Made by a program: the position numbers and the translations under genes. The notes beneath the pieces are model-generated. The model was given only the letters and a program-made list of their open reading frames with translations, did not search any database and was not told the DNA's origin. Shown here one piece after another: positions 18,948 to 22,075 of a stretch of DNA of 47,260 nt. How positions within the stretch are numbered: position 1 is the stretch's first letter; each line of letters opens with the position of its first letter. The stretch comes from Alphaproteobacteria bacterium (GTDB lineage: Bacteria > Pseudomonadota > Alphaproteobacteria > M2410): positions 1 to 47,260 of the forward strand of contig JAUWTJ010000027.1 in assembly GCA_030614785.1 (NCBI GenBank). The letters are read 5' to 3'.

Positions 18948-19616
18948 CTACAGGCTGATCTGAAAATCGCTGTTGCGCAGCCAGGAAGATACATTGTTTG
19001 TGAGGCTTTTGGGGCCAACGACCACGAGATCGGCATCCCGAATGGCTCGAGTGTAGGTATCGTGGCCGAGCCATACATCTGTCATGGTGCGCACCGTTGT
19101 TGTGAAATAAACATCAACGTCCTTGCCAGGATCCTTGACGCACACATCAATTCTGTCGCCCTCGATCACCAACCACCAGTTCTTTTGCTGGCTGAGGTCT
19201 GTAAATTCAAACTGGATAATGGCATTGTTTCCAGCAAGCTTGTCTGTGACCACGCTTCGCTCAAGATAAAGCATCAAGAGATCGACGTCATAGTCATCGT
19301 CGGTCAGGTTTTCCTTTGCCCACTGCATTCCCCACTCCCCAAGCGCCATCAAAACCGGCAGAAGCGCTTCTGCAGATGGTGTTGGAAAATATTCAAACCC
19401 TCTTTGACCCTGGATCTTGCGCTTCACGATCAGCCCGTTTTCTTCAAGATCGCCGAGACGCTTGCTCAACAGAGCAGGAGAAATCGTTCCCAGGCCGCGC
19501 TGCAGCCTGTTAAAGCGGCGACTGTCCATCAACACCTCCCGAAGGATCAGGACAGTCCATCGCTCGCCCAATAACTCCATCGACTTTGCAATCGGGCAAA
19601 ATTGTCCGTAGCCCAT
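18948..19616 (-). CDS. HxlR-family regulator with a C-terminal SCP2-like domain
   Basis: 222 residues. Residues 1-100 form an HxlR/MarR-like winged helix beginning GYGQFCPIAKSMELLGERWTVLILRE, with the Cys near the N-terminus common in HxlR proteins, followed by FNRLQRGLGTISPALLSKRLGDLEENGLI. The C-terminal half resembles the SCP2 sterol-carrier fold found in a subset of HxlR regulators and may bind a hydrophobic effector. GGGAG precedes the ATG by nine bases. It is divergent from the CMD/methyltransferase pair, with three matching dyads between, so it very likely controls both directions. Confidence 0.9.
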   Translation of the reverse strand: MGYGQFCPIAKSMELLGERWTVLILREVLMDSRRFNRLQRGLGTISPALLSKRLGDLEENGLIVKRKIQGQRGFEYFPTPSAEALLPVLMALGEWGMQWAKENLTDDDYDVDLLMLYLERSVVTDKLAGNNAIIQFEFTDLSQQKNWWLVIEGDRIDVCVKDPGKDVDVYFTTTVRTMTDVWLGHDTYTRAIRDADLVVVGPKSLTNNVSSWLRNSDFQISL

Positions 19617-19661
19617 ACCGCAGATCTCCCTTCTTCCAATGCCATATCGAGGCAGAATGTA

Positions 19662-19722
19662 ACTTCAATTCCTGAAGGGCGATACTTCAAAATCTGTAGT
19701 GCAACACTTCACACCGCGAAGT
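19662..19722. promoter_or_regulatory. Three 17-bp dyads at 22-bp spacing: probable HxlR operators
   Basis: Site 1 is ACTTCAATTCCTGAAGG (19662-19678), site 2 ACTTCAAAATCTGTAGT (19684-19700) and site 3 ACTTCACACCGCGAAGT (19706-19722). All fit ACTTCA-N5-TGAAGT with small deviations, and their centres are exactly 22 bases apart (19670, 19692, 19714). That is close to two helical turns, so dimers would sit on nearly the same face. The array lies 46-106 bases upstream of the HxlR start and 85-145 bases upstream of the opposite gene. Confidence 0.7.
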
Positions 19723-19806
19723 ACACCGCACGCAAGGTTCCTCATAGAGTCTGCCTCACCGCAGCTTCTTCGCTGCAAACCATACAGATTAGATGAGGAC
19801 AGGAAA

Positions 19807-20388
19807 ATGACCCCCTTCAAAATACACAACGCCGATACGGCTCCGCCAGAGGCCAGGCCGCATTTGCAAAAGATACAAAAAACACTCGGCTTTATCCCCA
19901 ACGTGCATGGGGTGATCGGCGGCTCAGTCCTTGCGACCGAGGCAATGGCTGCCCTGCAAGGCGCTGTGGCAAAATCAGGTTTCAGTGCCACTGAGCAACA
20001 AATTATCCAGATTGCAACCAGCACAGTGAATGAGTGTGGCTATTGCGTCGCCGGACACACTGCCTTTTCGGCGATGCAAGGGCTGCCGGAGGATGTCATT
20101 GCAGCAGTGCGAAATGACGATCCCATTGCAGATAGGAAACTGGAAGCCCTGCGTAGCTTCACTCTGGCGATGGTGCACCAGCGCGGCCATGTAACGCAGG
20201 ACCAGATCTCCCGGTTTCTTGATGACGGATATTCAGAAACGCAAGTCATCGAACTCATCACCGTTGTTGTGATGAAGGTGTTCGCCAACTTTGTCAGTAT
20301 CACGACGAACATTCCACTGGACAAGGCGTTCCAACCCTATGTCTGGACGCCCCCATCTGAAGTAACAAACATCGCACACGTTGCGTAA
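19807..20388 (+). CDS. Carboxymuconolactone decarboxylase (AhpD-like) family protein
   Basis: A 193-residue protein of the CMD/AhpD fold. The redox motif C77GYC80 with His84 (ECGYCVAGH) matches the AhpD-like peroxidase or peroxidase-related group rather than true decarboxylases, which lack the CXXC. The ATG at 19807 follows AGGACAGGA; upstream in-frame codons carry the operator DNA and are not coding. It probably reduces hydroperoxides or reactive electrophiles. It is followed 11 bases later by a methyltransferase and sits opposite an HxlR regulator, a common layout for electrophile- or thiol-stress units. Confidence 0.9.
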   Translation: MTPFKIHNADTAPPEARPHLQKIQKTLGFIPNVHGVIGGSVLATEAMAALQGAVAKSGFSATEQQIIQIATSTVNECGYCVAGHTAFSAMQGLPEDVIAAVRNDDPIADRKLEALRSFTLAMVHQRGHVTQDQISRFLDDGYSETQVIELITVVVMKVFANFVSITTNIPLDKAFQPYVWTPPSEVTNIAHVA

Positions 20389-20399
20389 GGAGAATTGAA

Positions 20400-21458
20400 A
20401 TGACGGATATGGAACAAGTTGAGGCCTTTGCGGGCCAGGTCGTTGGCGATGTTGCCGCAGCGCTTTCCGGCGTGATGACCAACATCGGCCACAAGCTTGG
20501 CCTGTACAAGGCAATGGCGGGAGCCGGGGCGCTGACCTCAGGCGCTCGGGCCAAGACAACCGACCTCCATGAGCGCCCGGCGCGTGAGTGGCCGGGGAAT
20601 CACACCGCCGGTGGCTATGTGACTTACGATGCGGCAACGCGGACCTACACATTGCCTGATGCCCATGTGCCGGTCCTTGCAGATCCGGACAGTCCGGTCT
20701 TTCTGATCCCGGCTCTGGAGGTCGCAGCCTCCTTGTGGCTGGACGAAGACAAGATCACGGATGTTTTCCGGACCGGCGAGGGCATCGCATGGGGCGAACA
20801 TCATCACCGCCTGTTCTGCGGCAGCGAGGCGCTCTTCCGGCCAGGCTACAAGGCCAGCCTTGTCGCTGACTGGATCAGCGCCATGCCCGGGGTTGAGGAA
20901 AAGTTGCAAGCCGGCGCCAAAATCGCCGATGTCGGATGTGGGCACGGTGCCTCGAGTATTCTGCTTGCCAAAGCATTTCCGAACTCCATGGTCTACGGCT
21001 TTGATCTTCATGAGCACTCTATCGAAACTGCCAGGCTGAGGGCGCGCGAAGCTGAATGCGGCGACAATGTCAAATTCGAGATTGCCAGTGCCAAGGATTA
21101 TGAAGAAGCAGACTTTGATCTGATTTGCTTCATGGACTGCCTGCACGACATGGGCGATCCTGTCGGTGCAGCCCATCACGCAAGGCAGGCCCTGAAATCC
21201 GATGGCGACATTTTACTGGTCGAACCTGCTGCGAGCGACAATCTTGAGGATAGCATCAATCCGGTCGCAAGGCTTTACTATGCTGCATCCACTGCCGTGT
21301 GTACGCCTTGTTCCCTGTCACAGGAAGTCGGGGCCGCGCTTGGAGCACAGGCGGGTGAGAAACGCCTTGCAGAAGCCATGAAGGAAGCCGGGTTTACGTC
21401 GGTGAGACGGGCGGCAGAAACTGCCTTCAACATCATCCTGCAATGCCGGGTATCCTGA
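20400..21458 (+). CDS. SAM-dependent methyltransferase with N-terminal winged-helix-like region
   Basis: 352 residues of the Rv2258c-like methyltransferase group. An N-terminal dimerisation/winged-helix region (about 1-90) precedes a class I Rossmann domain with motif I ADVGCGHG (176-183), the acidic loop FDLHEHS and LICFMDCLHDMGDP. AAGGAG sits well before the ATG, and the gap to the CMD gene is 11 bases, so the two are co-transcribed. The wing region reads GARAKTTDLHERPAREWPGN, where relatives have a Tyr-Val and a Leu at the two proline positions; the prolines would break helices, hinting at relaxed constraint there. The methyl acceptor is unknown. Confidence 0.9.
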   Translation: MTDMEQVEAFAGQVVGDVAAALSGVMTNIGHKLGLYKAMAGAGALTSGARAKTTDLHERPAREWPGNHTAGGYVTYDAATRTYTLPDAHVPVLADPDSPVFLIPALEVAASLWLDEDKITDVFRTGEGIAWGEHHHRLFCGSEALFRPGYKASLVADWISAMPGVEEKLQAGAKIADVGCGHGASSILLAKAFPNSMVYGFDLHEHSIETARLRAREAECGDNVKFEIASAKDYEEADFDLICFMDCLHDMGDPVGAAHHARQALKSDGDILLVEPAASDNLEDSINPVARLYYAASTAVCTPCSLSQEVGAALGAQAGEKRLAEAMKEAGFTSVRRAAETAFNIILQCRVS

Positions 21459-21580: not shown

Positions 21581-22075
21581 ATGAACACTGAATTCGACAC
21601 CTACAATGGCGGCTGCGCGTGTGGCAATGTTTGCTACCGCATGACATCACACCCGATGATTGTTCATTGCTGTCATTGCCGCGAATGCCAGCGACAAACC
21701 GGAACCTCGTTCGCGCTTAACGCACTCATCGAAGCTAACCGCGTGCAGTTACTCGAAGGAGAGGTTGACATGGTCATTGTACCGTCCAACAGCGGCCAGG
21801 GCCAAAAGATTTCCCGCTGCCCGAAGTGCCGGGTTGCTGTGTGGAGTAACTATGCCCTGTCCGACGGAATCGACGATGCAGTTTGCTTTGTTCGTGTCGG
21901 GACACTTGACGATCCTGACAGGTTACCGCCTGACATTCACATCTACACAGCCTCGAAACAGCCGTGGGTCGTTCTGCCGCCTGAAGACCGTGCCGCCCTG
22001 GAATACTATAATACCGAAGAAACCTGGTCCGAAGAGAGCCTGGCTCGTCGCGCTGCCTTGCGTAATCCAGCCTAG
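21581..22075 (+). CDS. GFA/CENP-V family zinc protein
   Basis: A 164-residue member of the GFA (glutathione-dependent formaldehyde-activating enzyme-like) fold. Zinc ligands are visible as C12-A-C14, the cluster HCCHCREC (Cys30-Cys36) and C80PKC83. AAGGAG lies before the ATG. The family is broad and often annotated as formaldehyde detoxification, but few members have proven activity, so only a metal-binding fold is claimed. Its stop codon TAG shares the four bases CTAG with the stop of gltD on the other strand. Confidence 0.88.

Follow-up and report, generated by a model that had tools for sequence, protein, structure and literature searches.

A phased dyad array in register with a divergent promoter is the probable operator of an HxlR-SCP2 regulator

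Three near-identical dyads separate a gene for an HxlR-type regulator with an SCP2 domain (HxlR-SCP2) from a divergent operon in the window, that is, the whole stretch of 47,260 nucleotides of alphaproteobacterial DNA analyzed here. They raise the question of which protein they serve and what that protein would do at the promoters between the genes. The features concerned are as follows.

18948..19616, minus strand: HxlR-SCP2 regulator, 222 aa, with an HxlR domain (aa 15-102), an SCP2 domain (aa 124-211), and a conserved Cys7
19656..19661, minus strand: TACATT, a possible -10 box for hxlR that directly adjoins dyad A and lies 22 nt beyond dyad B (0 mismatches to dyad-N22-TANNNT)
19662..19678: dyad A, hxlR-proximal, register position 3, ACTTCAATTCCTGAAGG (half-sites ACTTCA and TGAAGG around ATTCC)
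19684..19700: dyad B, middle, register position 2, ACTTCAAAATCTGTAGT (ACTTCA and TGTAGT around AAATC)
19706..19722: dyad C, CMD-proximal, register position 1, ACTTCACACCGCGAAGT (ACTTCA and CGAAGT around CACCG)
19745..19750, plus strand: TAGAGT, predicted to be the -10 box of the CMD operon; 22 nt separate it from dyad C, so that it begins at offset 23 from that dyad's end
19807..20388, plus strand: first gene of the divergent operon, encoding a CMD/AhpD-like protein of 193 aa that contains an ECGYCVAGH motif
20400..21458, plus strand: SAM methyltransferase, 352 aa, with an Rv2258c-like winged-helix N-terminal domain; second gene of the divergent operon

The regulator matched PF01638 (HxlR) at 63 bits (cut-off 20.8) and PF02036 (SCP2) at 24.9 bits (cut-off 21.3), the first divergent gene matched the CMD domain PF02627, and the methyltransferase matched PF21320 in its N-terminal domain, which confirmed the domains named in the initial annotation (HxlR with SCP2, CMD/AhpD-like, and methyltransferase). 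The regulator also matched solved HxlR-family chains and, judged by its sequence, is a true member of that family. A relative of the methyltransferase gene was retained beside hxlR orthologues at L046, L049, L053, and L058. A gene with a GFA domain (glutathione-dependent formaldehyde-activating-like) occurs at 21581-22075, 122 bp after the methyltransferase. The same genome contains a second HxlR-SCP2 that is 39% identical (L005, G000:C12:5515-6174); it has one dyad only, of AGTTCA-N5-TGAATC-like form, and its divergent side shows TAGAAG at offset 23. An AlphaFold model (three sequences) had a mean pLDDT of 61, which is too low for a fold search, and thus nothing is claimed here about the structure of the SCP2 pocket or of a surface between dimers.

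The sequences and positions of the three dyads, as well as their 22-base spacing, proved to be exactly those first described, with a centre-to-centre pitch of 22 bp. Dyads A, B, and C were the sole matches in the window to ACTTCA-N5-TGAAGT at up to one mismatch; simulated windows (200, first-order Markov) contained on average 0.045 such sites, with a maximum of 2. Seven matches were listed at the same threshold in the 3.86-Mb genome, three of which were located at the hxlR-CMD locus. Genome-wide, a double dyad at 22-bp pitch gave two matches with up to one mismatch, both at this locus, and one more at three mismatches. The triple array was not detected by an exact-seed repeat search of the window because the exact seeds are interrupted, and an Rfam scan of the window gave no match.

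The initial annotation had named a lack of conservation of the sites, or of their phasing, in relatives as what would refute it; both proved to be conserved. Orthologues were drawn from whole genomes of the same class and of another class of the same phylum, together with two named gammaproteobacterial records; same-order and same-family searches covered four genomes, and a single-protein scan of genome contigs found just two relatives. The 200 bp upstream of hxlR were scanned in 33 other orthologues of HxlR-SCP2 (at least 50% identity, two classes). At least one dyad of the form ACTWC-N7-GWAGT (up to 2 mismatches of 10) was present in 30 of the 33, a pair at exactly 22 bp in 27, and a pair at 44 bp in 16, whereas 22-bp pairs were found in 0.005 loci for shuffled sequences and in none of the coding controls. 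In a register alignment of 38 loci, the middle unit (unit 2) was the best conserved, with up to two mismatches in 35 of the loci and no mismatch in 15; unit 1, which adjoins the divergent gene, reached the same level in 34/38 and unit 3 in 19/34. No fourth unit was seen in this alignment; since the chaining of units began at the best-scoring start, the lack of an outer unit 0 follows in part from the method. Over 88 units, the consensus was ACTWCA-N5-TGWAGT, often followed by A. L060 was without an array, and the arrays of L031, L053, L057, and L059 were weak. Distant HxlR-SCP2 homologues (L026, L038, L040, and L044) had AGTACA-N5-TGTACT-type dyads upstream of the hxlR homologue, a change of the outer bases from ACT to AGT that is possibly a specificity switch.

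The array accompanies the regulator rather than the gene that it faces. The divergent gene encoded a CMD protein at 10 loci, a 4-oxalocrotonate tautomerase (4-OT) at about 16, and other proteins, including an NnrU-like one, elsewhere, and at least seven changes are required to place these labels on the maximum-likelihood tree. The array was retained throughout one clade (support 94/89; core 100/97), and the sister clade had no dyads or one. Among 385 genomes of the same class, 15 carried the regulator (called at E 1e-50), and stringent double dyads (up to one mismatch) were found in five, all of them among these 15 (Fisher p 4e-8), with every such double dyad adjoining an HxlR-SCP2 gene. By these sequence comparisons, the array belongs with hxlR, not with the CMD gene. 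Further arrays were found at other genes: a gammaproteobacterial MAG (L011:1538-2991) contained a tautomerase gene with a triple array twice, both copies having three dyads and TAGCAT as the -10 box, and additional arrays were observed at a second tautomerase gene (L088), at an NnrU-like gene (L087), and at a second HxlR-SCP2 paralogue that faces a flavin reductase gene and an acyl-CoA dehydrogenase-like gene (L086). In Aliikangiella sp. G2MR2-5 (L085:2999-3037), a GNAT acetyltransferase gene is preceded by a perfect double dyad (0 mismatches), with no hxlR within the examined stretch.

The array is also aligned with the divergent promoter. On the side of the divergent gene, the base at offset 24 from unit 1 was A in 37 of the 38 loci (4-OT, 15/15; CMD, 10/10; other, 12/13) and offsets 23 and 28 were mostly T, which looks like a -10 hexamer placed to the base; other flank positions had a background identity of 0.29. 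Offset 23 was C rather than T in 8 of the 15 4-OT promoters, and about 60% of the loci had C at offset 34, which fits the base before the start. With the hexamer taken as -12 to -7, unit 1 spans -51 to -35. In the window, with CMD transcription predicted to start at about 19757, this places dyad C on the usual site of the -35 box with its centre at -43, and dyads B and A with their centres at about -65 and -87. No -35 box was found at the divergent promoters (best TTGACA match 2.58 vs. 2.43 for the null; TTG in 1 of 38 loci), and a sigma-70 consensus scan showed no promoter at the CMD gene, as expected if the -35 box is absent. Searching the whole genome for dyad-N22-TANNNT with up to two mismatches returned this locus only, with one match pointing to CMD and one to hxlR. 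Several distant single-dyad relatives, including L005, likewise had A at offset 24. The subfamily, as defined here, combines an SCP2 domain, at least two dyads at 22-bp pitch, and a -10 box at offset 23, and the window locus has all of these. On the side of the likely target, offsets 23-28 read TANNNT in most, not all, of the arrays away from this hxlR:

L011, second 4-OT: TAGCAT
L085, GNAT: TAGTAT (TAATAA also on the other side, so that the direction there is uncertain)
L086, flavin reductase: TAGACT
L087, NnrU-like: TATTAT
L088, 4-OT, array away from hxlR: CAGGAA instead of TANNNT

This alignment of the array, to the exact base, with the divergent -10 box was absent from the initial annotation; as read from the sequences, it points to activation.

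The hxlR side was less regular. Transcription of hxlR is predicted to start at about 19649, which places the centre of dyad A at about -21 and that of dyad B at -43 and leaves dyad A within the spacer of the predicted promoter. The hxlR -10 box had weaker support in relatives, and a fixed -10 register on this side was not consistent across loci. Across loci, the hxlR-side dyad is often near the hxlR start codon, and its position inside the predicted hxlR promoter suggests autorepression.

Taken together, the most probable reading, which we hold with reasonable confidence, is that the three dyads serve the neighbouring HxlR-SCP2 as its operator and that this regulator would bind them cooperatively, activate the CMD promoter in class II fashion, and limit hxlR. 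One dimer would occupy each 17-bp ACTWCA-N5-TGWAGT dyad, and since 22 bp corresponds to about 2.1 helical turns, neighbouring dimers would be on almost the same side of the helix, where they could touch. Cooperative binding by HxlR had already been proposed, and it is supported, not directly, by the conservation of the 22-bp pitch in 27/33 orthologues and by the way the array follows the regulator. The strong middle dyad would probably be loaded first. Dyad C, in place of the missing -35 box, would position the bound regulator to recruit RNA polymerase to the CMD-methyltransferase promoter, helped by the dyads at -65 and -87; class II sites are centred near -41 to -43, and dyad C is centred at -43 on the predicted start. 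Filling of the hxlR promoter spacer at full occupancy would then limit hxlR. HxlR of Bacillus subtilis is a positive regulator (PMC7835342), which was counted in favor of the activation reading.

A different mechanism would be plain repression of the YodB/QsrR kind, in which dimers on the array block polymerase at both promoters until Cys7 is modified or SCP2 binds a ligand. Repressors, too, can act from sites near -43; the array overlaps the place of a -35 box in the divergent promoter and partly also the promoter of hxlR, and GC-rich genomes often have weak -35 boxes. Moreover, several characterized HxlR/DUF24 proteins, namely YodB, CatR, and QsrR, are thiol-sensing repressors (PMC8063818, PMC6798810), and the N-terminal Cys7, within a CP motif, was invariant in 53/53 homologues. 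However, promoters controlled by repression usually require a good core, whereas the divergent promoters have no -35 box; the exact -10 register in 37/38 loci is demanded by polymerase contact and not by occlusion, which also has no need of dyads at -65 and -87. Repression alone is thus rather unlikely, while keeping some weight.

That another regulator binds the array, with the adjacency of hxlR being historical, is conceivable insofar as assignment of the array to the HxlR-SCP2 family is a reading of sequence. It is highly improbable, however, because stringent arrays in the class sample occurred only in genomes with HxlR-SCP2 and directly beside its gene, an Aliikangiella array is found at a second HxlR-SCP2 paralogue, and the half-sites resemble HxlR-family sites such as that of E. 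coli ytfH. Duplication of a 22-bp unit could produce a regular pitch, but spacers and dyad centres vary between units within one locus and it is the half-sites that are the conserved positions, so a decayed tandem repeat can be set aside. Chance is excluded by the orthologue pairs (27/33, null 0.005) and by the window simulations.

The operator as predicted would give a little-studied but widespread regulator subfamily a precise target, and the rule of a dyad, 22 nt, and TANNNT could be applied genome by genome for the regulon. It also makes a sharp prediction of mechanism, activation by several dimers of an HxlR-family protein, for a family in which several characterized members repress. AhpD-like, tautomerase, NnrU-like, methyltransferase, and flavin-dependent enzymes would be linked in one regulon, which is a clue to the signal.

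An open-access library yielded no relevant paper on HxlR combined with SCP2 or a sterol carrier, and comparison was made with related systems. B. subtilis HxlR (hxlAB) belongs to the same DNA-binding family and aligned over aa 7-100, but it has no SCP2 domain, unlike the window regulator. Its Cys11, which aligns with the invariant Cys7, forms a formaldehyde crosslink pair with Lys13 (PMC7835342). In all 53 HxlR-SCP2 homologues, I, V, L, or A stands in place of this lysine, the residue after the CP motif never being K, and a formaldehyde crosslink mechanism was rejected for HxlR-SCP2 owing to the absence of the Lys of the Cys-X-Lys pair on helix 1. The invariant cysteine is as good a candidate sensor as the SCP2 domain, for which the initial annotation had suggested a lipid-like effector. 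The DNA in the B. subtilis HxlR crystal, CAGTATCCTCGAGGATACTG, has AGTA..TACT half-sites, in contrast to ACTWC..GWAGT in HxlR-SCP2 arrays. As a precedent for tandem sites, Yurimoto is said to have described in 2005 two 25-bp repeats in the hxlAB promoter that are needed for regulation.

DUF24 regulators of the YodB/QsrR/HypR type and E. coli YtfH are wHTH dimers on a short palindrome, as proposed for HxlR-SCP2, and share its conserved N-terminal Cys; YodB and QsrR are repressors and lack SCP2. The statement in the initial annotation that no HxlR operator of this form was known was too strong, as the ytfH-qorB intergenic region of E. coli K-12 (L092:4074-4090) contains a perfect 17-bp palindrome, ACTTACTTTTAGTAAGT (ACTTAC-N5-GTAAGT), of the same geometry and with the same ACT..AGT ends, which is likely the YtfH operator. 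The E. coli site is, however, a single dyad, and its divergent side lacks a -10 box at offset 23. The half-site is thus family-like, and the new part is the phased, promoter-registered array of the SCP2 subfamily.

The right operator of phage lambda also places three operators of 17 bp between divergent promoters; CI activates one of these promoters from a site near -42, and occupied sites hold the other in check. Its pitch and layout are similar to those of the HxlR-SCP2 array, but the protein is unrelated and of a different family. A fuller analogy is tentative and somewhat doubtful as a whole: the middle site would fill first, the -43 site would cooperatively activate the operon, and the third, filled when the protein is abundant, would shut the regulator's own promoter, with a lipid-like or electrophilic ligand acting through SCP2 or Cys7, and the module would have been carried to genes of detoxification type (AhpD-like, tautomerase, NnrU-like, and flavin reductase) across two proteobacterial classes.
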